NCBI RefSeq assembly: GCF_009193325.2
Contig: NZ_CP059856.1
Coordinates: 2,294,001-2,358,000 of the forward strand
Length of the DNA stretch: 64,000 nucleotides
Direction: 5' to 3'
Source: Bacteroides zhangwenhongii
GTDB taxonomy: Bacteria > Bacteroidota > Bacteroidia > Bacteroidales > Bacteroidaceae
Part shown: in pieces, positions 205 through 45,600 of the stretch
How positions within the stretch are numbered: the first letter of the stretch is position 1
Layout: every line of letters starts with the position of its first letter
Program-made: the position numbers and the translations under genes
The notes under the pieces: generated by a model
Database searches by the model: none
Told to the model about the DNA's origin: nothing
What the model saw: only the letters and a program-made list of their open reading frames with translations

Positions 205-2814
205 TTATTCGCAATAATCGGGAAGGCGCACAGTGAAACGGGTTCCCTTACCCACTTCGGAAGTTACAGAAATAGTCCCTTTTAAACGCTCGACAATTGT
301 TTGACAGATACTCAATCCCAATCCTGCCCCTTGTGTGAAATTATCAACTTTATAGAACCGTTCAAAGATGTGCCGGATACCTTCTTCCGAAATGCCGACT
401 CCGGTATCTTCTACAAAGATACGGGTATATCCGGGCTCTTCCTCTTCTTCATAACCGAAAGTGATAGAACCGCTGAATGTAAACTTAGCCGCATTATTAA
501 TCAGATTATTCACTACCTGTTGCAGGCGTACGTTATCTGTCTGAAGGTACTTTTTATCCCCTTCGGGCATACGTAGCAGCAGTTCCACTCCCGGAGGCAT
601 ATTCAACCGCTGTGAATCGTGAACAGTCTTCAACAGCAGAGGTAAGTTATGTTCCGCAAAGATAAATTCCATCGTACCTGACTCTATACGGGACAAGTCA
701 AGAATATCATTAATCAATGCCAACAGCAAACCACAATTTTTATTAATAGTCGCAATAAACTGAGCAACTTCTTCTGTTGTAAACCCACTTGTATCACTCA
801 GCAAATCGGAGAAACCAACAATAGCATTCAATGGAGTACGAATCTCATGGCTCATATTGGCAAGGAAGGCTGATTTCAGTTTATCAGTCTGAAGAGCTTT
901 ATCACGCGCTTCCCTCATTTCCTGTTCGGCCGTCTTATATCGCTGAATACTTTGACAGACACCTAATATATTATACAGCGAGTCTTGCGTCAATCCTGTG
1001 ATAACGGAAGAACGGTATTCCCACCACTCGTATTCACCATCGGCGTTACGTTGACGGAAGTTCAGGCGCGTATTCGTATCTTCTCCGGTCAGCGCCCTGT
1101 CAAATAACAGTTTCACTTCCTTCAAATCGTCCGGATGAACCGTCCGCTCCATATCCTCACGTGAAATTATCGTAACCGATTCTTCATATCCCAGACGTGT
1201 CAAAAAGCCCTGAGGAAAGATGAAACAATTTGTTTCCACATCGAATTGCCACGGATAAATGGAACTTTCATCCATCGCCATATCAAAAAAACGTTTTTGC
1301 ATTTCTTCATCCGAGATATTCCGGGCGGAAAACGCCATACCGGTAATCATACCCCTTGAACGGATAGGTACAATTTCTCCAGACACCGGGAAATACTTAT
1401 CGCTATGCACCTCTTTCATAAAAGAACCTTGAGGTATCTGCACGCTCTCCCCTGTGCCGGCCACTTGTTTCAACATCTTATGAAGAATATCCTGCCCCTC
1501 ATTATATATATTGAAAATACTGCCTGCCATCATCCCTTCATAAACACGTCCTCCCGCCTCGCTAGGCAAATGGAGCATTTTCAGCAGAGAACTATTCGTA
1601 AAATGAATATGCAAATCAGTATCATACGTTATCACCCCATCGCGGATAGAATGGAAAATATTATCAAACTCATTACGCTGTTCTACCAACTTATTCTGCA
1701 CCAATAAACGGGTTTGTGCTTGAATCCGCCGTTTAGATTCGCGCCGGTTAACCCTCATCAGCCATACGACGGAAACAACCAACAATGCCAAAATAGACGG
1801 ATAAAGAAGAATAAATAGGAATTTATACTTCTCCCAATAAGGTTCATTGACAATTATTCCACTTGAGGCTACCTTATCAGGATCAACGTAGAAGAAATCC
1901 AATTGCTTATAATCATATATAAATCCCTGCTTGCTTTCCGTTACTCCTATTTCTTGTGGAGATGTCCCCTTCAATACTTGAGAAGCCTTTTGCCCGGCCA
2001 ATAATGCCGAAGTATAAGCATCACTGTCATAGGCACAGAATACACCATTAGTCAGCCCCACATTCTGGCTTGCAAACACAGGAGCTTTAGAGTTCTTCCC
2101 GACAAATGAGAGAAAAGGAGACCATTTAGGAGCTATGACAAGACGCCCGTGACTGTTACGCGGATAACAAATAGCTGCAATAATATGACTGGTCGTATGA
2201 TTCTGGGTATTATAGATTTTCATATCATAATCCGGATGATCTTTCTGAAAGATGTCCCACTCCTCTTGAAAGTCATTAAGCCCCCTTGCACTCAGAAAAC
2301 TATTGTCTATCACACAAAGCACTTCTTTCCGTAAAGGAAATATTTTCTGAGCCTGGCGGAGAATCACATCAAAGTCAGGATTGGCAACAAACCCGCAAAC
2401 ATTAGGATGGGCAGCAATCAATTTTTCATCAGGATATTTAATATCGAAAAACACTACCGGAATCTGCAAGGGCAACGAATCGCCACAGGCAAAAAGCGTG
2501 TAAAAGGCCTCATCACTTGCCGTAACAATCAAATCGGTCTTCCTTTCACGGGCACGTTCACAAAAGCGGCGCATGATTACCTTCTCCGACCGGAATGTCC
2601 AAAAATCGGCATCCAGATATTCTGTTGTAATATTCACCTTTATCCCACTCTCTCTGAATCCTTTTGCCAATCCTTGGTTCAGGCTGCTATGCCAAGGAGT
2701 CTGCGCTGTATAAGATTGTAGGAAAAGTATATTGAATGTACGTTCCGTAGCTGCCGCCTGAATAAGAACAGCCCAAAAGAGAACTACAAACAAACAGCAA
2801 TATCGTCGATTCAT
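205..2814 (-). CDS. Membrane sensor histidine kinase with periplasmic substrate-binding-like domain
   Basis: The protein has about 869 residues. An N-terminal signal/anchor is followed by a periplasmic region (about 28-325) that resembles ABC-transporter substrate-binding sensors. One membrane segment lies at about 331-354. Two PAS-type domains follow (about 385-500 and 515-630; the second contains VHPDD). The HisKA domain has MSHEIRTPLNAIVGF with the phospho-acceptor at about His656. The ATPase domain shows the N box (NNLINNAAKF), DTGVGI and GAGLGLSI. There is no receiver domain after it, so this is a classical kinase and not a hybrid, and no response regulator is adjacent. ATG at 2814 is preferred to the in-frame TTG two codons earlier. 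The ligand is unknown. Confidence 0.9.
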   Translation of the reverse strand: MNRRYCCLFVVLFWAVLIQAAATERTFNILFLQSYTAQTPWHSSLNQGLAKGFRESGIKVNITTEYLDADFWTFRSEKVIMRRFCERARERKTDLIVTASDEAFYTLFACGDSLPLQIPVVFFDIKYPDEKLIAAHPNVCGFVANPDFDVILRQAQKIFPLRKEVLCVIDNSFLSARGLNDFQEEWDIFQKDHPDYDMKIYNTQNHTTSHIIAAICYPRNSHGRLVIAPKWSPFLSFVGKNSKAPVFASQNVGLTNGVFCAYDSDAYTSALLAGQKASQVLKGTSPQEIGVTESKQGFIYDYKQLDFFYVDPDKVASSGIIVNEPYWEKYKFLFILLYPSILALLVVSVVWLMRVNRRESKRRIQAQTRLLVQNKLVEQRNEFDNIFHSIRDGVITYDTDLHIHFTNSSLLKMLHLPSEAGGRVYEGMMAGSIFNIYNEGQDILHKMLKQVAGTGESVQIPQGSFMKEVHSDKYFPVSGEIVPIRSRGMITGMAFSARNISDEEMQKRFFDMAMDESSIYPWQFDVETNCFIFPQGFLTRLGYEESVTIISREDMERTVHPDDLKEVKLLFDRALTGEDTNTRLNFRQRNADGEYEWWEYRSSVITGLTQDSLYNILGVCQSIQRYKTAEQEMREARDKALQTDKLKSAFLANMSHEIRTPLNAIVGFSDLLSDTSGFTTEEVAQFIATINKNCGLLLALINDILDLSRIESGTMEFIFAEHNLPLLLKTVHDSQRLNMPPGVELLLRMPEGDKKYLQTDNVRLQQVVNNLINNAAKFTFSGSITFGYEEEEEPGYTRIFVEDTGVGISEEGIRHIFERFYKVDNFTQGAGLGLSICQTIVERLKGTISVTSEVGKGTRFTVRLPDYCE

Positions 2815-5310: not shown

Positions 5311-5330
5311 AAAAATCCGAAAAATAATTG
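5311..5330. repeat. Left attachment-site core (attL)
   Basis: aaaaatccgaaaaataattg matches 11074-11093 exactly over 20 bases, and the flanking bases differ on both sides. The core lies in the promoter region of the glucosaminidase gene. Confidence 0.85.
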
Positions 5331-5452
5331 AAAGTAAAAAAGATTTTTCACGAATATTGGTTAACAGGTATTTAAGAGAATACCACTCTTCTTTCCCGCC
5401 ATCTCTGTAGAACAAAAAGAACCAAAAGGGAGAACTTAACCAGAGAACAAAA

Positions 5453-7075
5453 ATGGAGAACCAACAATTTTTTTTTGATGAGGCTATAAAAATGTATTTT
5501 AATTTACGACAGAGCAAATTAGAGAGGCCAACTATTATCTATATTGTTATTAGTGCCAATGGTATGAAAACTAAAATAAGCACCAATGTAAAAGTTTATC
5601 CTAGTCAATGGAATTATAAACAATATAAAGCTATTATAAGCCATCGCTTAACTGAACTCGACAATCACAACAATACTATTGTCAATAGTAAATTAAACGA
5701 ATGCATTATTGCTTTTAATCAGGCAAAAGATTACCTTTGCCAAAATACAACAGCGTTAAATCAAAAAATCGATATTATAAAAAAATACATTTACAAAGTT
5801 ACTATGAGTAAAAAAAGAACAGAGCCCCCCTTCCATTGGATATTCAGAAAATTAAGGGAAAAAACTATAAAAGAAAGTTCAAAAACAACAGAATATAGAA
5901 TACTAAAATCATTCCAAGAATACCTTAACAATAGCAATATTAATCTTGACAATTGGGATAAATTAAATTTAGATTTATTGATAAACTATAGAGAATACCT
6001 CAAAACAAGAACAAATAGGCAAGGTAAACTTGATGAAGTTAGTACTCGCAATCAAAAAATAAAAAAAATTATAGAATATGCAAAACTTGCCGAAAAGGAA
6101 GAACTCATAGATTTAAAAAAAAGTCGAATTTCACTATATGAATTTGAAAAAGACTTAAGAGGCAACAATAACCAAATTGTATTAAAAGAAGACGAAATAA
6201 AAGCCATATTAGAAGTCGAATTAACAGGAGATAAAGAAAAAGTACGAGATTTATTCATTTTTCAATACTATATAGGACAGCGATATAGTGATATTGAACA
6301 AATAACAAAAGACAGAATACAAGAATATAAAGGAAAAAAATATTGTATTTTAAAACAAAAGAAAACAGGTAAATTGGCAGAAATAATACTGCATCAAAGA
6401 GCTATAGATATTCTCGAAAAATACAATTATAAATTACCTCAAATCAATATATACAAATGCGATAGAGATATAAAGTCTATAGCAAAAGAAGCAGGAATTA
6501 AGGGAAAAGAAATAATATCAGAACAAAGAGGATATGAAATAAAAGAATCAGAGAAGGAACGTTGGGAGTTAATAGGAACACATACTAGTAGAAGAAGTTT
6601 TATAACCCATTCTATAGCCCAAGGAAAAAGCAGAATTGATACCCAAAGACAGAGTGGGCATAGTACGGAAAACAGTCTCAATAAATATATTAAGGACAAA
6701 GATATTTCTTTCATTGAAAAAAGGATAGATAGAGAAATAGAAGAAGAAAAAGGAAAATCGTCTAATGTAGAATTTGATTCAACAATCATTGATAAACTAA
6801 TAAATGAAGCAAAAGAAAAGTTTATTCAAAATACAATAAATGAAGCAAAAGAAGTACTAACCATGCTAGGAGCGCAAAGTTATGAATTTCAAGATATATA
6901 TGATATTGAAGCATTACACAGATTGATGAGCTATAAATATGAATCCAAGCTACTCAATGTTGGAATCCCTATAGAAACTATAAAAGGAATATATAATACA
7001 CGAGAAAAAACATTATATGAAAAAGCAGAGGCTATACAAAAATTATATAATGAGGCAATTAATAAAACAAAATAA
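5453..7075 (+). CDS. Tyrosine-type site-specific integrase of the element
   Basis: The protein has 540 residues. The N-terminal part (1-60) resembles the arm-binding domain of Bacteroides integrases, followed by a SAM-like core-binding domain (about 120-215) and a catalytic domain (about 240-415). The catalytic set is visible: Arg277 in IGQRYSDIEQI, Lys304 in KKTGK, His377 and Arg380 in HTSRR, His403 in QSGHST, and the nucleophile Tyr412 in LNKYIK. About 125 residues follow the tyrosine, an unusually long charged, helical tail compared with typical integrases of about 400 residues. Codon use is very AT-rich. It starts 123 bases inside attL and should catalyse integration and excision at the 20-base core. 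Confidence 0.93.
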   Translation: MENQQFFFDEAIKMYFNLRQSKLERPTIIYIVISANGMKTKISTNVKVYPSQWNYKQYKAIISHRLTELDNHNNTIVNSKLNECIIAFNQAKDYLCQNTTALNQKIDIIKKYIYKVTMSKKRTEPPFHWIFRKLREKTIKESSKTTEYRILKSFQEYLNNSNINLDNWDKLNLDLLINYREYLKTRTNRQGKLDEVSTRNQKIKKIIEYAKLAEKEELIDLKKSRISLYEFEKDLRGNNNQIVLKEDEIKAILEVELTGDKEKVRDLFIFQYYIGQRYSDIEQITKDRIQEYKGKKYCILKQKKTGKLAEIILHQRAIDILEKYNYKLPQINIYKCDRDIKSIAKEAGIKGKEIISEQRGYEIKESEKERWELIGTHTSRRSFITHSIAQGKSRIDTQRQSGHSTENSLNKYIKDKDISFIEKRIDREIEEEKGKSSNVEFDSTIIDKLINEAKEKFIQNTINEAKEVLTMLGAQSYEFQDIYDIEALHRLMSYKYESKLLNVGIPIETIKGIYNTREKTLYEKAEAIQKLYNEAINKTK

Positions 7076-7098
7076 TCTCATTATATAATATATTTTTA

Positions 7099-7106
7099 TA
7101 TCTTTG
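7099..7106 (+). promoter_or_regulatory. -7 box for the small coiled-coil gene
   Basis: TATCTTTG lies 25 bases upstream of the ATG at 7132, so this gene probably has its own promoter downstream of the integrase. Confidence 0.5.
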
Positions 7107-7131
7107 TCGAAACATTTAAAATTAAAATATT

Positions 7132-7350
7132 ATGGCAAGAGTAACAGAAACTTATTACACTAAAATTAAGGAAAATAAAATCAAACTAGAAGATGTTCCT
7201 ATTAAAAAGTTGTGGGAAGAATTAAAAAATAGTCAAGAAGAGCTAGAAAAATACAAGAAAGGAAAAGATTCTAATACCATAATAAAAAAGATAAAAAAAA
7301 TAATAGAGGACTACGATAAAAGTGAAATAAAAAAAGAAGAGGAGAAATAA
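7132..7350 (+). CDS. Small charged coiled-coil protein of the element (unknown)
   Basis: The 72-residue protein is rich in Lys and Glu, with a likely helical stretch (LWEELKNSQEELEKYKKG) and an acidic/basic tail. It has a promoter box and follows the integrase by 56 bases. I recognise no family. Position and size would fit a directionality factor or regulator, but there is no visible helix-turn-helix, so no function is assigned. Confidence 0.6.
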   Translation: MARVTETYYTKIKENKIKLEDVPIKKLWEELKNSQEELEKYKKGKDSNTIIKKIKKIIEDYDKSEIKKEEEK

Positions 7351-7362
7351 AATCTCCTCTTT
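7337..7362. terminator. Bidirectional terminator hairpin
   Basis: AAGAGGAGA pairs with TCTCCTCTT around a 7-base A/T loop and is followed by T's on the plus strand and preceded by A's. It lies between two convergent genes and overlaps the end of the upstream one. Confidence 0.65.
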
Positions 7363-7989
7363 TTATACAAATTCCTTTTTTATTCTCTGAATTGTTGATA
7401 AAGAATAGCCTGTCAGTTTTGCAATATTACGAAGTGAATATTGTTGTTTTAGCATTCTAATAACTTCTTTATACTCTTCTTTTTTCTGTTCTGTAGATTT
7501 ACAACTTCCTTTTTTTCTTCCTAAAACTCCACCACGTTCAATATACAATTTCCTACCACTATTTAGACGATATTGAATATTTTCTCTCTCCAATTGCGCA
7601 CACGTTGATAACGTAGCAAGCATAACAGGAGCAAACATTGTAGGATTATTTTTTTCATCTAATAACAAAAATCTTTCTTTTTGAATATATAAATTTATTT
7701 TTTTATCAACCAATAATTTTACTGTTTCTAAAACTTCAAAAGCATTGCGTCCTAAACGACTAAGTTCACTAACAAGGATTATATCTATCCTTTCTTTAGA
7801 AGAAAATTCCAATGCATCCATTAATATTTGTCTATCACAATTTTTCTTTGCACCTGAAATACGTTCTTCAAATATTTTAATAACATCTAAATTTTCATAT
7901 CTAGCATAATTCATTAAATCTGAAATTTGCCTATCAGAATTTTGTCTATCTGTAGTTGAACTAACACGAGCGTAAATTATAGCCTTCAT
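7363..7989 (-). CDS. Serine recombinase (resolvase/invertase family)
   Basis: The 208-residue protein starts MKAIIYARVSS, with the nucleophile at Ser10. It also shows the family motif LVSELSRLGRN, with the conserved arginine that activates the scissile phosphate. A C-terminal helix-turn-helix (YSLRNIAKLTGYSLSTIQRI) provides DNA binding, and the length is normal for small resolvases/invertases. It is AT-rich like its neighbours and is convergent with the small coiled-coil gene. An array of TTGAATACA-type repeats lies upstream of its start and could be its res site or operator. Likely roles are resolution of multimers or inversion of a segment; no obvious invertible promoter is seen. Confidence 0.92.
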   Translation of the reverse strand: MKAIIYARVSSTTDRQNSDRQISDLMNYARYENLDVIKIFEERISGAKKNCDRQILMDALEFSSKERIDIILVSELSRLGRNAFEVLETVKLLVDKKINLYIQKERFLLLDEKNNPTMFAPVMLATLSTCAQLERENIQYRLNSGRKLYIERGGVLGRKKGSCKSTEQKKEEYKEVIRMLKQQYSLRNIAKLTGYSLSTIQRIKKEFV

Positions 7990-8003
7990 ATAGTAACATT
8001 TAT

Positions 8004-8134
8004 TTTAATACATTGCAAATGTAGTATTTACATCTAATATAGCCAAATAATTCAAAGATTATTTTGAATACATAAACAAAACGTATTCAATGTACAATAT
8101 AGATTTATTTGAATACAATAATTTTCTGAATACA
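8004..8134. repeat. Array of TTGAATACA repeats upstream of the serine recombinase
   Basis: Copies lie at 8064-8072 (TTGAATACA), 8083-8090 (GTATTCAA, inverted), 8109-8117 (TTGAATACA) and 8127-8134 (TGAATACA). A weaker copy, TTTAATACA, lies at 8004-8012. The first two form an inverted pair. The array occupies the promoter region of the recombinase gene, which starts at 7989. Candidates are recombination subsites, an autoregulatory operator or iterons. The rest of 7990-8375 is AT-rich and holds no gene I can support. Confidence 0.6.
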
Positions 8135-8315
8135 GAGCAGATAATAAACTATAAAAACAAGCGTATCTTTCATCTATTATTATTATTTTATTTAAAAAAA
8201 ATCCAAAGCTAACATTCTCTAATAGAATCAATAATAGAAATCATAATCCGAATAATATCCAAAAATAAAACACGCTCGGTAAAAAAGACGTTTCTATGTA
8301 ACTTTTATCTCTAAA

Positions 8316-8354
8316 AGGCCTGGCCGTTATAATAAAAACGGCCAACTGTGGCCT
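8316..8354 (-). terminator. Terminator of the primase-like gene
   Basis: Nested stems AGGCC/GGCCT (8316-8320 with 8350-8354) and GGCCGTT/AACGGCC (8322-8328 with 8337-8343) are followed on the minus strand by TTTT. They lie about 22 bases after the stop of the minus-strand gene ending at 8376. Confidence 0.65.
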
Positions 8355-8375
8355 CAACAAATTCTATATAAAATT

Positions 8376-9698
8376 TTAAGCAGTAAAACTAAACTCCTTA
8401 ATAAATTTATATAAAGTTGATTTTCCTACGAATATTCCATTTTCCCTTAAATTAGATATATTATCAATAACTGACAAATTAAAATCATAAAATTGGCCTA
8501 AATCCTCATATAACATCTGTTTTTTTGCAATATTCTTCGCACTATTTTTAGAGATTCCATGCTTTAAACAATAGGCTGGGTTAACAATATATCTTCTTTT
8601 GTCTCTTTCTATTTTTATCTCATATCTTGTATTAAAATAAGCATTATATGCTATTTTAAATAATACATTACAAGTTATTTCATTATCATAATTATATATA
8701 TAATATACGACCTCATGAATTAAACAATAAAGTAAGTGTTCAATACTAATATCAGAAAGCATATATTTTCTAATTAGCGCATTATTAAATAAAATTTTAC
8801 TTCTCTTTCCTTTTCTTATTTTTAATGGTTTAGAAATATATGTTTCCCTACCATTATCCAATATTACTTTTTCATTTATCCAATAACGTTTAATCTGTGT
8901 ATAATTACTAGGCAACCTAATAAATGCAATATCATCATTAACAGTAGGAAGTGGGGTTGTATTAAAAGCAACATATCTATCTGAATATTTAGCTATAATC
9001 TTCTCAAAATCATTATTATTTCTACATTTCCAAAAATCAGTCATAAACTCTTTATCCACAAATTCCAAATCAGATTTTATAATGTACTCCTTCTTCTCTT
9101 TTTTTATAGATTCTGAATTGGAATATTTCAAATATTCATCAAAATCATTTAAACTAAAAATATTATAACTAACATAATATATAATATTATCTTTACTATT
9201 TCCAGCCATTTGTTGAGATGAATTTAGGCAACTTTTATCTTTTAATTCAAATTCAAATACTTTCTTTATATACCCCATAATCCCTAAAGCAATCTTTCTA
9301 TACAAAGAATTATCAGGTATTATATCATCAAACACATATATTAATCTATATCTATTATTTTTATCTAATATATTAGAAAATGTAGAATAAATAAATGAAG
9401 GTTTCAATTCTATTTTATCCCAAAAATCATGAATATTAATTTCAAAATCATCAACATCAATGCTAATAAAACTTGCAGAAAGTAGATTTTCAATCTTTTT
9501 ATCTTTCTGTGTTATAAACTCCGTATCAGACTTAAAATGATTAATAAAGCAATATCCACATTTTATATATTCTATAAATTCATCAATTAATACATCAATA
9601 GGTTTATTATAATTTACTTTGTACCAGTGTTGAGGCTTTTCATCATAGTTAATAGTACTAAAAGAGACACTTATTCTCTTATTTTCATTTTTTATCAT
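8376..9698 (-). CDS. Putative primase/replication-type protein of the element
   Basis: The 440-residue, very AT-rich gene matches no family I can name with certainty. The N-terminal 180 residues hold SFISIDVDDF (about 77-85), SFIYSTFSN (about 101-109), NRYRLIYVFDD (about 115-125) and a SQQMAGNS-like stretch. This order of an Asp-x-Asp-like strand, a small-residue strand and an R-x-R-containing strand is reminiscent of archaeo-eukaryotic-primase-like domains in replication proteins of plasmids and satellites. The C-terminal half has a possible helix-turn-helix (GISKNSAKNIAKKQML). A replication role for the element is inference; a structure prediction would settle it. Confidence 0.55.
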   Translation of the reverse strand: MIKNENKRISVSFSTINYDEKPQHWYKVNYNKPIDVLIDEFIEYIKCGYCFINHFKSDTEFITQKDKKIENLLSASFISIDVDDFEINIHDFWDKIELKPSFIYSTFSNILDKNNRYRLIYVFDDIIPDNSLYRKIALGIMGYIKKVFEFELKDKSCLNSSQQMAGNSKDNIIYYVSYNIFSLNDFDEYLKYSNSESIKKEKKEYIIKSDLEFVDKEFMTDFWKCRNNNDFEKIIAKYSDRYVAFNTTPLPTVNDDIAFIRLPSNYTQIKRYWINEKVILDNGRETYISKPLKIRKGKRSKILFNNALIRKYMLSDISIEHLLYCLIHEVVYYIYNYDNEITCNVLFKIAYNAYFNTRYEIKIERDKRRYIVNPAYCLKHGISKNSAKNIAKKQMLYEDLGQFYDFNLSVIDNISNLRENGIFVGKSTLYKFIKEFSFTA

Positions 9699-9886
9699 TT
9701 AAATTTATTGATTGCTCCTACTTCTTATTCAGACAACTATTAGAGAACAAGAAGTGATAATAGGAAGCCTTCTTATTTTTTATTCTAATAGCAAAAAGAG
9801 GAAAATAGCTATTTTTCTTCATCTTCAAATGTATATAGAAAAATATTAAAATCCAAAATTAACAGCAAAAGATTTGCCATTAAAAC

Positions 9887-9916
9887 AAAAAAGCTCTACC
9901 TTTCAGTAGAGCTTTT
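9887..9916 (-). terminator. Terminator of the membrane-protein gene
   Basis: AAAAGCTCTAC and GTAGAGCTTTT form an 11-bp stem around CTTTCA, flanked by A's and T's. It lies just after the minus-strand stop at 9943. Confidence 0.75.
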
Positions 9917-9942
9917 AAGCCAATAGATTTATTGTTCAATCA

Positions 9943-10422
9943 TTACTTTTGCATCTCATTTTGCTGCACAATTTCTTTTAGTAATAAATTACAGAGACTA
10001 GCAGCTTCTTGACTTGCTATTTTAACAGGTCGTTTAAACATATAAATTATAATAATTGCTATAATTACACCTGGTATTCCTTGCATATATATAGGCATTT
10101 CAACAGAAAGCACACACACTAATATACACAGCAAAACTATAATAGCAACGATAACGAACCAAGCAGTAGAAGGTAGTGCTACATAATAAAATGAAACCTT
10201 AAACTTATCTTTATTATTATCAATTAAGCAATGTATTATTTTTCTAGTCCAAAAATTGTTATGAGAGGAAGTATCAAAGCTAAAAGCATTTCCATCTCTT
10301 TCACATGGCATAACCTTGTTAAAGACATTATGTGACAAAGATAAAAATTTCCCTTTTGTCAAATTGGAAGTTATAACTTCACTACCGCCATCCCGAAATC
10401 CTCTTTCAAAATAGTCCTCCAT
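9943..10422 (-). CDS. Unknown membrane protein with two adjacent transmembrane helices
   Basis: The 159-residue protein has a soluble N-terminal half (about 1-80) and two hydrophobic segments: about 84-107 (WFVIVAIIVLLCILVCVLSV) and about 110-130 (GIPGVIIAIIIIYMF). A short polar tail follows. The start is 6 bases after the stop of the lipoprotein gene, so the two are probably one transcript. It lies inside the element near attR and ends at a strong terminator. I recognise no family. Its partnership with a lipoprotein makes it an interesting cargo candidate. Confidence 0.7.
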   Translation of the reverse strand: MEDYFERGFRDGGSEVITSNLTKGKFLSLSHNVFNKVMPCERDGNAFSFDTSSHNNFWTRKIIHCLIDNNKDKFKVSFYYVALPSTAWFVIVAIIVLLCILVCVLSVEMPIYMQGIPGVIIAIIIIYMFKRPVKIASQEAASLCNLLLKEIVQQNEMQK

Positions 10423-10428
10423 AATGAT

Positions 10429-10674
10429 TTATTTACCGTCCATCAGGTCGCCAGCTATCTGTAGCATTGTATTCAAATCCCCATCTTTACCAGCTTGCTT
10501 ATATTTTACAATAGCAGCTTCCAAATAAGCCTGTCCACCTTCCATATCATCAACTTTAAAAAACTTAAAATAGGTCTGCGCATCTTTTTGAGGGTTTAAT
10601 GTAATTTTAGCCTCATCATTACAGGCAGCAAGGAGCAAAAACATTGCAGCAAATGCAAATAATAATTTTTTCAT
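10429..10674 (-). CDS. Small lipoprotein of the element (unknown)
   Basis: The 81-residue protein has a type II signal peptide (MKKLLFAFAAMFLLLAAC) with the lipobox cysteine at position 18. About 60 residues of soluble, possibly helical domain follow. It is the first gene after a roughly 170-base structured RNA on the same strand; the RNA's 3' stem ends 52 bases upstream of the ATG. It is probably co-transcribed with the membrane protein downstream. No family recognised. Confidence 0.75.
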   Translation of the reverse strand: MKKLLFAFAAMFLLLAACNDEAKITLNPQKDAQTYFKFFKVDDMEGGQAYLEAAIVKYKQAGKDGDLNTMLQIAGDLMDGK

Positions 10675-10726
10675 GATAATAAAGATTTTAATAACTCGCC
10701 AAGCCTAATCGAAATAATAAAAAAGA

Positions 10727-10911
10727 AAGAGCGCAGGCTTGTTAGTTTATCTGTATCGAAGCATCGCCAAACGCTCACATCACAATAAACACAACAATAG
10801 CCCACGCTTCATATAAGGAGCGTGAGCATTTAGTTGCTATCCTCGTGATGTTTTGAAATTGGCGATTTCCGATACAAGGATATACTAAACGCTCTTTACG
10901 TTATCTAAAAT
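10727..10911 (-). ncRNA. Structured RNA of about 170 nt, element copy
   Basis: On the minus strand a promoter box (10919-10926) is followed by an RNA that folds as one long interrupted rod. Its helices (plus coordinates) are AAGAGCG 10727-10733 with 10890-10896, TGTATCG 10752-10758 with 10870-10876, ATCGCCAA 10763-10770 with 10859-10866, CATCAC 10778-10783 with 10845-10850, CAAC 10792-10795 with 10833-10836, and an apical hairpin 10800-10810 with 10817-10827. The closing stem is followed by a T-rich tract on the minus strand. The fold, length and key unpaired segments (GCAACTAA, TTATATG, AACTAAC) match the RNA at 34130-34301 although most helices differ in sequence. It is not an ORF. The Rfam identity is not known to me. 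Confidence 0.75.
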
Positions 10912-10918
10912 GTCGAGA

Positions 10919-10926
10919 CAAAGATA
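10919..10926 (-). promoter_or_regulatory. -7 box of the element RNA
   Basis: TATCTTTG on the minus strand lies 22 bases before the closing stem. The chromosomal RNA copy has the identical octamer 27 bases before its stem. Confidence 0.65.
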
Positions 10927-11073
10927 ACATTTTTTTCATTCAATAAATAAAAAACACGAGTTTAAGAATATCAAAATAATAATTTGTGGCTATATTTGCA
11001 GCGTTCTAAGAGATACAAGAAAGAACAAACACAGATTACCAATATTATAATAGTCTATTTTTCAGTATACTTT

Positions 11074-11093
11074 AAAAATCCGAAAAATAATTG
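11074..11093. repeat. Right attachment-site core (attR)
   Basis: This is a perfect 20-base copy of 5311-5330. Its last three bases (TTG) serve as the -33 element of the cdd promoter. Confidence 0.85.
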
Positions 11094-34094: not shown

Positions 34095-34102
34095 TATCTT
34101 TG
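34095..34102 (+). promoter_or_regulatory. -7 box of the chromosomal structured RNA
   Basis: TATCTTTG lies 27 bases before the closing stem of the RNA; the same octamer precedes the element copy. Confidence 0.65.
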
Positions 34103-34108
34103 TTTCCA

Positions 34109-34306
34109 CTTATTACGATTAATAACGTAGAAGCGTTTAGAATATTATCTCTGTTCAGAATCTGGTAAATTCATTAACGGTGGGATAATGGCAACTAAGC
34201 GTTCACGTCTTTGTTATATGCAAGGGCGTGGACTCTGTTGTTCATTCACCGTTAGGCTTACCAGAGCCCTGAACAGGATGAACTAACGACGTCCACGCTT
34301 CTTTTG
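34109..34306 (+). ncRNA. Structured RNA of about 170 nt, chromosomal copy
   Basis: The rod-like fold is closed by GAAGCG 34130-34135 with CGCTTC 34296-34301, followed by TTTT. Inner helices are CTGTTCAG 34151-34158 with 34269-34276, TCTGGTAA 34161-34168 with 34258-34265, AACGGTG 34176-34182 with 34247-34253, CAAC 34192-34195 with 34237-34240, and CACGTCTTT 34204-34212 with AAGGGCGTG 34222-34230 around a TTATATG-containing loop. Closing stem to closing stem is 172 bases, against 170 for the copy on the element. GCAACTAA, TTATATG, TGTTGTT and AACTAAC are shared while most helices differ in sequence but not in pairing. GTCCACGC near the 3' end could also pair with GCGTGGAC of the apical arm, a possible switch. 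Confidence 0.75.
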
Positions 34307-34354
34307 TATATATACGGTATCCGGACGCATACTACCACAACAAACAATCGTAAA

Positions 34355-35038
34355 ATGAACAACATTATTACAAAGTTCTTTGCATCTTTATTAGCCTACG
34401 GGGTAGCTAATAAGAAAAAGCGTTTTTCGGCAATCGGTCATTTCTCTGAGGGCTTAGCTCCGGCCAGAGGCAAAATACAATGGGGATACATCAACAAAGG
34501 ATATGATATCATCATTCCTTTACAATATGAACGGGCTTTTTCCTTCAAAGAGAACTTAGCTATGGTAGTACGCGACTCCCAATATGGATATATCGACCGC
34601 ACAGGACATATACAAATTCCTTTTAACTTTTCAGCAGCCCATTCGTTCGAACAAGAATGTGCACGAGTATGCAATGACGGATTATGGGGGCTGATCGACA
34701 GACAAGGCAATTATATTCTTCCACCAACATACAGTCTGATAGAGCAATTCACCGAAGGACTGGCACTCGTCTCTCTTTATAGTAAGGTGGGATTCATCAA
34801 CATGAAAGGCAAAGTCGTCATTCCATTAGAATATGACAACGGTTGTCCTTTTTCTGAAGGACTAGCAGCCGTCTGCATTGAAAAACAATCCGCCAAATGG
34901 GGATACATAGACAAAGAAAATCAAGAAATACTTCCTTTTAAATACGATATAGCAGAACCCTTTTATAACAACATAGCCCGAGTGGGTCTCTATGGAAAAA
35001 GCATGAAAATCAATAAGCAGGGCAGCGAATGTCTGTAA
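34355..35038 (+). CDS. WG-repeat protein
   Basis: The 227-residue protein contains about six tandem WG-type repeats with the pattern WGYINKG, YGYIDRTG, WGLIDRQG, VGFINMKG and WGYIDKEN, each followed by PL/PF..Y strands and FSEGLA-like turns. The repeats form beta-structures thought to mediate binding. There is no signal peptide or enzymatic motif. ATG at 34355 is chosen because the upstream extension starts only with TTG inside the 3' end of the structured RNA. It lies 53 bases downstream of that RNA; a functional link is unproven. Confidence 0.85.
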   Translation: MNNIITKFFASLLAYGVANKKKRFSAIGHFSEGLAPARGKIQWGYINKGYDIIIPLQYERAFSFKENLAMVVRDSQYGYIDRTGHIQIPFNFSAAHSFEQECARVCNDGLWGLIDRQGNYILPPTYSLIEQFTEGLALVSLYSKVGFINMKGKVVIPLEYDNGCPFSEGLAAVCIEKQSAKWGYIDKENQEILPFKYDIAEPFYNNIARVGLYGKSMKINKQGSECL

Positions 35039-44479: not shown

Positions 44480-44487
44480 TATATTTG
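44480..44487 (+). promoter_or_regulatory. -7 box of the structured leader
   Basis: TATATTTG lies about 268 bases upstream of the alpha-CTD-like gene. No clear TTG is seen at the usual spacing. Confidence 0.55.
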
Positions 44488-44493
44488 CAGCGA

Positions 44494-44754
44494 GGATTGG
44501 ACCACTATTGACAGCCAATCTCCATGTTTTAGGACATTAATTTATCTAACCCGAAAAGTCGCATTTTCAAAGCGAAGGATAAATAGATGTCCGTGCTAAG
44601 CTTATATCCTTTTCAAATATAAGTTTGGGTACGGGCATACTATATTTTCTTCTGCTGGGTATGCGACTACCTCGGGTTTGGAATATATGTATCGCTCGTA
44701 CCTTTTATTTATTATAATCCGGTTGCGGCGCATACATTAAAAAACAAACGAGGT
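44494..44754 (+). ncRNA. Long pseudoknotted leader or sRNA upstream of the alpha-CTD-like gene
   Basis: Helices that can form are GATTGG 44495-44500 with 44515-44520; GGACAT 44532-44537 with ATGTCC 44587-44592, extended by ATTTATC 44540-44546 with 44578-44584; and a strong stem of CCGTGCTAAGCTTATAT (44591-44607) with ATATAAGTTTGGGTACGG. From the loop of the second hairpin, AACCCGA (44548-44554) and AGTCGCA (44557-44563) are exact complements of TCGGGTT (44672-44678) and TGCGACT (44662-44668), giving a long pseudoknot. GCATAC (44635-44640)/GTATGC is a competing stem. I do not recognise the class. It may be a riboswitch-like leader or an independent RNA. Confidence 0.6.
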
Positions 44755-45600
44755 ATGACAACAAAACAATGGATTGGCATTGAAGAAGCCGCAGAAAAGT
44801 ATCAAGTATCTATCAGACGTATCAATACGTGGTGTAAAAGACAAGAAATCACTTTCTCAGAAATAGGTCATTATCTGATGCTGGATGAAAACAGTTTGCT
44901 GGAATGTATCGAACGAAACATACAGCTTAACCTTACCAAAGAAGAGTTTGAACGACGCAAAGAAAAACTCATAAGAGAAAACGAAGAAAACCTATTTATT
45001 CTCCAATCGTTAGAGCCACTTACCCCGATGATGCGCCTGATAATAAAAGAGCTTGCCGGAATGATTCAAGATGAAAACAGAAGGCGTATGTTCTTATTTG
45101 TTACACTGGAAGGTAGTCTCAAAAAATACGCAAAAGAATCCTGTCAAGACTTTTATTATATACAAAGAGAGTTTCAGATACTTATTCGGGATATTCAATC
45201 CCGAATCGGATTTCTAAAGACATACAAAGACGAAATGACACACCTCAAAGCAACGCTGCGACTGTACGAAATGAACTTCGGCAGAAATCTATTCAGAAGA
45301 AACGATAGTATACAAGAAGAAAGTCCGGCAATCCAAGAAAAGGAAAATGCCATCCATGTGCTCAATACTCCTATTAGTGGCTTTGAGTTTGACGCAAGGC
45401 CTAGCCGAGTGCTAGGCGAAAATGGTATACGGACACTTCGGGATTTATTAAAACTTACCTATAAATACGGATGGAACAGAATAAATAAACTACCACACTT
45501 AGGCCCTACCTCAGTAAACAGGGTAATCAACCGACTGCAACAGTTGAATATCCTTGATGATGAAAAAGGATGCTATCTATATAAATATTTGGATGAATGA
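44755..45600 (+). CDS. HTH protein with an RNA-polymerase-alpha-CTD-like domain
   Basis: The 281-residue protein has a MerR/excisionase-type helix-turn-helix at 1-50 (IGIEEAAEKYQVSIRRINTWCKRQ), a long helical middle region (about 60-195), and a C-terminal helix-hairpin-helix domain (about 205-266). That domain contains ISGFEFDARPSRVLGENGIR and LPHLGPTSVNRVINRL, the pattern of the alpha subunit C-terminal domain of RNA polymerase. It could recruit polymerase or mimic its DNA-binding domain at specific sites. It is a single gene with its own long leader and terminator. Confidence 0.75.
   Translation: MTTKQWIGIEEAAEKYQVSIRRINTWCKRQEITFSEIGHYLMLDENSLLECIERNIQLNLTKEEFERRKEKLIRENEENLFILQSLEPLTPMMRLIIKELAGMIQDENRRRMFLFVTLEGSLKKYAKESCQDFYYIQREFQILIRDIQSRIGFLKTYKDEMTHLKATLRLYEMNFGRNLFRRNDSIQEESPAIQEKENAIHVLNTPISGFEFDARPSRVLGENGIRTLRDLLKLTYKYGWNRINKLPHLGPTSVNRVINRLQQLNILDDEKGCYLYKYLDE

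Follow-up and report, generated by a model that had tools for sequence, protein, structure and literature searches.

The window analysed here, a stretch of 64,000 nucleotides (nt) from Bacteroides zhangwenhongii (contig NZ_CP059856.1, positions 2,294,001 to 2,358,000), contains two structured RNAs, one carried by an integrative element and the other chromosomal (Table 1). They are not an odd pair but members of a large family of leader RNAs in Bacteroidota, and Rfam lists no matching family. We think it rather probable that each copy acts in cis, as a 5' leader with a candidate conditional terminator, and that each leader recognises itself, as the replacement of two of its helices, X and Z, suggests. 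If this is right, each genome of gut and environmental Bacteroidota contains between ten and two dozen copies of a regulatory RNA absent from Rfam. They would precede secreted, surface and mobile-element genes, mostly of unknown role, and would amount to a collection of RNA switches diversified by nature, whose recognition sequences are private.

Two structured RNAs and their family

A sequence-only reading of the window had proposed an RNA at each of the two sites, with helices that differ in sequence between the copies yet stay paired, and in this it was correct. Folded singly, both copies give long rods, far more stable than shuffled sequences: -75.8 kcal/mol for the minus strand of 10715-10905 (z-score -8.7) and -76.1 kcal/mol for the plus strand of 34120-34310 (z-score -8.0), 0/200 shuffles being as good in either case. 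Three covarying helices are real. Helix X is formed by CGATACA/TGTATCG in the element copy and by CTGTTCAG/CTGAACAG in the chromosomal copy, helix K by ATCGCCAA/TTGGCGAT in one copy and TCTGGTAA/TTACCAGA in the other, and helix Z by CATCAC/GTGATG (element) and AACGGTG/CACCGTT (chromosome). Among 94 non-redundant relatives, cognate X, K and Z strands pair 7.4, 5.2 and 7.6 kcal/mol better than they do with the strands of other copies (0/2000 permutations as good for each), and for 6 of 7 control strand pairs the difference was at most 0.23 kcal/mol, with at least 119/2000 permutations as good. The motifs GCAACTAA, TTATATG and AACTAAC had been described as unpaired and conserved. They are common to the subgroup of the window copies, not to the whole family, and GCAACTAA and AACTAAC are not simply unpaired, as GCGTTTAG, close to the 5' end, is a possible partner for each of them, in two different folds.

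Further copies, as that reading had anticipated, were found by covariance-model search, many of them in relatives. A first model (R1), built from four sequences, recruited relatives within the genus; at E-values up to 0.1 it may overcount, as the reverse strand of two identical copies scores 29.1 bits. All counts given here rest on a second model (R2), built from 46 relatives. R2 matches were present in 152 of 201 genomes and 25 of 30 genera of a Bacteroidaceae sample (E up to 0.001), in 50/149 genomes of a sample of the order and in 11/198 of a sample of the phylum (both at E up to 1e-5), each sample including the genome of the window. That genome gave 20 matches (E up to 0.01); as two of them are halves of one copy (L169 and L170), and a third copy in the window is absent from the list, it holds about 20 copies. 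Six relatives assembled in one to three contigs had 9, 16, 15, 24, 16 and 11 matches (E up to 0.001). As controls, 35 unrelated loci (266,834 bases) yielded a single R2 match, of 22.4 bits, and the reverse strands at the two window copies scored 16.5 and 14.2. An exact motif pattern retrieved 24 stretches of named genomes, of which two (L023 and L030) are true copies; no R2 match above 22.4 bits was found in the remaining 22, nor in seven viral stretches. Two phage records match one copy in part, over 34% and 23% of the query length.

Rfam release 15, run on the whole window at gathering cutoffs, reported two tRNAs only. At both RNA sites, with E up to 10, all matches were far below cutoff, and a search of 14 further loci that carry other copies, with E up to 0.5, gave six matches, all outside the module. 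Bacteroides-1 and Bacteroidales-1, two families that the sequence-only reading had put forward, were among those searched and match neither site. Flavo-1 (RF01705), Bacteroides-1 (RF01694), Bacteroidales-1 (RF01693) and BTnc060 (RF04184) are likewise structured RNAs of Bacteroidota, and in these scans the module matched none of them. BTnc060, a distinct small RNA (sRNA), occurs at one locus (L075, 2433-2647, minus strand), some 220 nt upstream of a copy and in the same orientation. Bacteroides-2 (Weinberg 2010), the third family put forward, stands without Rfam accession in the published table (PMC2864571).

Searches of open-licence literature returned no paper that we recognised as describing this family. 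PMC9723704, PMC2864571 and PMC7366714 describe other RNAs of the phylum. Palindromic candidate RNAs of Bacteroidetes, 80-132 bp long, have been extracted from human-microbiome metagenomes (PMC8040213). Three of them, HMP2_4205, HMP_4078 and HMP2_1032, resemble the leader RNA in host phylum and palindromic character, two being called terminators and one lying near phage integrase domains; they differ from the leader module in length (106-132 bp). These candidates, compared through their description, could be part of the family.

Position before genes and alternative folds

The position of the copies was examined on 115 distinct copies, 113 of them with enough upstream sequence. A TAnnTTTG motif, of the Bacteroides promoter type, is present within 120 nt upstream of 99 of these 113 (12.3 expected from shuffled sequences, 15 on the reverse strand), mostly 20-70 nt away. 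On the other side, an open reading frame (ORF) of at least 50 codons starts 20-70 nt downstream in 71/114 copies, versus 2/110 on the divergent side. A promoter motif upstream and a gene start on the same strand shortly downstream are what a cis-acting leader should have. Among 112 downstream products, crude rules detected 73 signal-peptide-like starts and 26 lipobox-like motifs. After removal of starts nearer than 20 nt, of the two window copies and of repeats, 99 of these proteins were scanned: 61 Pfam families were found, the commonest in at most 4 proteins (25 families listed), including leucine-rich repeats, lipocalin-like, WG repeats, PEGA, TonB plug, glycosyltransferases and MmeI. From the motif upstream, the ORF start downstream and the variety of products, we conclude that the copies serve as leaders and that the genes behind them are varied, and often secreted or accessory.

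An alternative, which we hold unlikely, is that these are stand-alone sRNAs, which would act in trans, either on other mRNAs or by way of an RNA-binding protein, and that the adjoining gene is incidental. Such RNAs would also be bracketed by a promoter motif and a U-run, as the copies are. Moreover, a recombinase-like ORF (crude motif rule) is found within 1 kb on the same strand upstream of 13/102 copies and downstream of 0/102, which fits the location "adjacent to transposases/invertases" given in PMC11697453. According to that paper, the protein RbpB binds six paralogous sRNAs of B. thetaiotaomicron (BTnc020, BTnc054, BTnc075, BTnc172, BTnc213 and BTnc266) lying next to transposases or invertases. 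This group, described as sRNAs, is like the leader family in being multi-copy, in its Bacteroides host and in its neighbours, and the two, compared through that description, may be the same. However, an independent RNA gene would not be expected to show the clustering of ORF starts at 20-70 nt downstream.

Two mutually exclusive folds are conserved in the family. In the rod, the strands pair as p1:p4, a:d, b:c and p2:p3; in the other form, p1:p2 and a:b, then c:d and p3:p4, make two hairpins, the second of which abuts a U-run. RNAalifold, given 46 sequences and no structure, picks the two-hairpin pairs, with compensatory changes. In an alignment of 35 copies, pairing is kept in 97.7% and 95.2% of cells for the two folds, compared with 33-44% when partners are slid by 1-3 columns; p3:p4 and the lower p2:p3 helix are each paired in 100% of cells. 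In the 94 copies, cognate strands beat non-cognate ones in all twelve pairings (eight flanking, X, Z, K, and p4 with the downstream loop), at 0/2000 permutations each. Where p3:p4 has a G-C pair in 35/35 copies, p2:p3 has U-G in 34/35. The U-run (5 or more T among the 8 bases following p4) is present in 175 of the 188 copies with a recognisable p4 (of 209), versus 8/112 background motifs, and it is followed by a hairpin whose loop is complementary to p4. Because p3 is shared between p2 and p4, the better match, p3:p4, abuts the U-run, and a later loop can hold p4, the layout is that of a conditional terminator, and we think that the alternative folds probably constitute one.

The mechanism that we favour is built on what comparison of sequences reveals of placement, pairings, conservation of both folds and U-run. 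Transcription would start at the TAnnTTTG promoter and then cross a module of about 160-240 nt, the core of which would comprise helices X and Z and two small hairpins with mutually matching loops (K). The strands around this core would pair in one of two ways, as the rod or as the two-hairpin form. In the latter, the GC-rich stem abutting the U-run would stop RNA polymerase, whereas the hairpin after the U-run, by holding p4 in its loop, would favour the read-through form. Something would then shift the balance between the two folds. Transcription attenuators are governed by competing terminator and antiterminator stems, and the leader family is like them in its 5' position, in its two mutually exclusive stems sharing one strand and in its U-run before the gene. 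It differs from them by the very long loop of the terminator-type stem and by hypervariable self-complementary strands, and no leader peptide or ligand has been identified for it.

Several observations weigh against this mechanism or against parts of it. Intrinsic terminators are usually short-looped, and a generic terminator scan (loop limit 8) reports no p3:p4 terminator at either window site, the loop of p3:p4 being far longer. In the rod, helix a:d keeps its pairing in 86.3% of cells. The downstream ORF starts outside the 20-70 nt interval in 41/112 cases, and 2/114 loci have no ORF within 450 nt. The shared pathway that a metabolite riboswitch would lead one to expect was not found among the 99 downstream proteins, nor any common function, so that no ligand is suggested. 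The strand-pairing permutations ignore kinship among copies, and one of the 7 controls, h1L:h2R, reached 4/2000 permutations as good, for a difference of 0.17 kcal/mol. Finally, at equal backbone identity, the X and Z strands are no more different within one genome than between genomes: at identity 0.8-0.9, X cross-pairs in 6/127 same-genome and 18/667 different-genome pairs, and Z in 3/127 and 5/667, respectively.

Replacement of the X and Z strands

The strands X/X' and Z/Z', hereafter named barcodes, are replaced wholesale between copies with nearly identical flanks, and their pairing is retained. One such pair, L172 and L174, belongs to the genome of the window. Both copies precede the same 120-residue ORF, and their flanks differ at 1/349 of the nearest sites and at 26/398 over 400 nt upstream. 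They nevertheless differ at 7/17 X sites and 10/19 Z sites (17/36 in all), with partner strands changed to match, while elsewhere in the rod 2/116 constant sites and 1/37 apical sites are changed. Across six same-genome pairs whose flank identity reaches 0.85 or more, changes affect 39/92 X and 47/104 Z sites, versus 52/715 constant and 152/2002 flank sites. This wholesale replacement with complementarity kept suggests that RNA-RNA recognition, of each leader by itself, matters. Why strands needing only mutual pairing get replaced wholesale between copies otherwise nearly the same is a testable question.

The comparison was extended to 286 copies (after removal of places fetched twice), which form 4 same-genome and 51 different-genome pairs with flank divergence up to 10%. 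In the four same-genome pairs the rods differ at 20, 33, 16 and 20 sites and the flanks at 1/349, 22/333, 25/342 and 7/350; in one of these pairs, L249/L251, the flanks have diverged about as much. In the 51 different-genome pairs, rod change is at most 3% in 18, 3-6% in 2 and above 6% in 31. Compensated pairs are absent from 20 of the 51 (one of which differs at 45 sites), number one to three in 13, and four or more in 18. Barcode strands also recur in new combinations, L067 sharing X with L078 and Z with L059. Orthologs do not always have a fixed barcode, as L326 and L335, from two genomes, have flanks 97-98% identical over about 850 nt and differ in both X and Z.

A second explanation, which we find improbable, is a leader of the riboswitch or protein-binding type, with X and Z as plain structural stems that drift freely. 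The conserved core, the many copies per genome and the 5' leader position agree with it, and so does the finding that barcodes are no more different within a genome than between genomes, as free drift would give. Freely drifting stems should, however, diverge in step with their surroundings, whereas the rod has diverged beyond the flanks in 30 of the 31 pairs with more than 6% rod change, and less than the flanks in 16 of the 18 with at most 3%. The contrast in L172/L174 between 17/36 barcode sites and 2/116 constant sites, and the diversity of downstream genes, also speak against it. Alternatively, though we hold this improbable too, the wholesale replacement may have a cause at the DNA level. 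Yet in 18/51 different-genome pairs the rod has changed by at most 3% while flank divergence reaches up to 9.5%, so that these segments are not simply fast-mutating. Moreover, L172/L174 retain the apical hairpin that separates Z from Z'; a single converted tract should have replaced it as well, except if the donor carried the same hairpin.

Returning to self-recognition, one specific form of it would be a phylum-wide set of gene-private RNA switches, in which a prematurely ended leader would persist in the cell and its X, K and Z strands would pair with the nascent leader of the same locus, freeing the 3' half of the latter to form the stop. Each gene would then measure and limit its own output via an RNA barcode, and copies would keep different barcodes, like plasmids of different incompatibility groups. 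We regard this form as quite doubtful, slightly more so because barcodes are no more different within than between genomes. With cross-pairing defined as 80% or more of own energy in both directions, 1/530 same-genome pairs cross-pair in both barcodes, but unrelated different-genome pairs are as rarely compatible. In antisense-controlled plasmid attenuators (pT181, pIP501), recognition loops differ between incompatibility groups and remain complementary. The proposed leader mechanism is like theirs in that RNA-RNA pairing would decide premature termination; it differs in that both partners are in one transcript and copies stand before ordinary genes. No separate antisense RNA turned up, in an analysis that included no directed search for antisense transcripts or half-modules. 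Nor did X or Z strands show consistent pairing with the mRNA of their own gene or with its upstream region (best of 12 tests 25, 35 and 47/1000 permutations, uncorrected).

The integrative element and other copies

The element copy does sit on a mobile element, as the sequence-only reading had stated: it is near the right end of a genuine 5.7-kb insertion that encodes a tyrosine integrase, a serine recombinase, and two ORFs and a lipoprotein-like gene without Pfam matches. The empty site is seen in 5/5 aligned relatives, where 5330 is joined to 11074 onward through the shared 20-bp sequence, and the neighbouring cdd region is present in 7/7 relatives. Six proteins were compared with defence-system models, and none matched. 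A similar order (DUF3871 protein, recombinase, RNA of 190.7 bits with R2, lipocalin-family protein) occurs in a circular 15.5-kb record of B. finegoldii (L267, NZ_OY725960.1, 11994-15501), and a circular record of Parabacteroides distasonis (L268, NZ_OY725749.1) has a copy of 149.4 bits. Both records are listed as plasmids. Two further Parabacteroides records were matched by BLAST only.

It had also been proposed that the element copy competes with or replaces the chromosomal one; the shared fold and the carriage of one copy by an integrative element speak for it. We find this very improbable: the two are among about 20 copies, and each has a gene of its own downstream. When the X, K and Z strands on the 5' side of the element copy are paired with their own 3' partners, the energies are -9.4, -10.7 and -11.2 kcal/mol; with the 3' strands of the chromosomal copy as partners they are -4.4, +0.5 and -2.1, a mismatch that does not support competition or substitution.

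Table 1. Positions in the window of the RNAs, their parts and the neighbouring genes
Feature	Position	Strand	Remarks
Element-borne leader RNA (rod), family member 1	10724..10903	-	R1 134.7 bits, R2 78.8 bits, z -8.7
Chromosomal leader RNA (rod), family member 2	34123..34305	+	R1 208.9 bits, R2 136.2 bits, z -8.0
Helix X, 5' strand CTGTTCAG	34151..34158	+	partner 34269-34276
Helix K, 5' strand CTGGTA, loop of small hairpin h1	34162..34167	+	partner 34259-34264
Strand p3	34224..34233	+	able to pair with p2 (34197-34209) or p4 (34290-34298)
Strand p4 and beginning of U-run	34290..34302	+	p3:p4 plus U-run, proposed terminator; family-wide U-run; not called by generic scan
Promoter motif TATCTTTG upstream of element copy	10919..10926	-	sequence; family-wide enrichment 99/113
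Promoter motif TATCTTTG upstream of chromosomal copy	34095..34102	+	sequence
WG-repeat protein gene	34355..35038	+	starts 49 nt after chromosomal RNA
Integrative element	5331..11073	.	between 20-bp direct repeats 5311-5330 and 11074-11093; flanks joined in 5/5 aligned relatives
Tyrosine integrase	5453..7075	+	Pfam Phage_integrase 24.7 bits, just under cutoff 27.1
Serine recombinase (Resolvase domain)	7363..7989	-	
Membrane-protein-like ORF (159 aa), next gene of element	9943..10422	-	
Small lipoprotein-like ORF (81 aa)	10429..10674	-	starts 49 nt after element RNA; no Pfam, NCBIfam or PADLOC match
Third family member, absent from the sequence-only reading	44527..44708	+	32.7 bits, E 8.9e-5, z -5.9
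Promoter motif TATATTTG upstream of third copy	44480..44487	+	sequence
Gene (281 aa)	44755..45600	+	starts 46 nt after third copy; weak RNA_pol_A_CTD match, below cutoff

Besides its promoter motif, the window's third copy has matching h1/h2 loops and a U-run, and its gene resembles, by eye, that of copy L173 in the N-terminal residues. The split copy L169/L170 (G000:C1:1620246-1622087) has a transposase gene, taken to be of the IS110 type, inserted in the module. At seven loci (L078, L079, L082, L084, L059, L067 and L083) the RNA is preceded, at a distance of about 190-200 nt, by a tyrosine recombinase of 195 aa, and at several of these the downstream lipoproteins are alike in the signal region and differ in the rest. 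Beside the copy of L080, a strong 86-nt hairpin (1699-1784, minus strand) matches a microRNA model (E 3e-5), presumably owing only to its inverted repeat.
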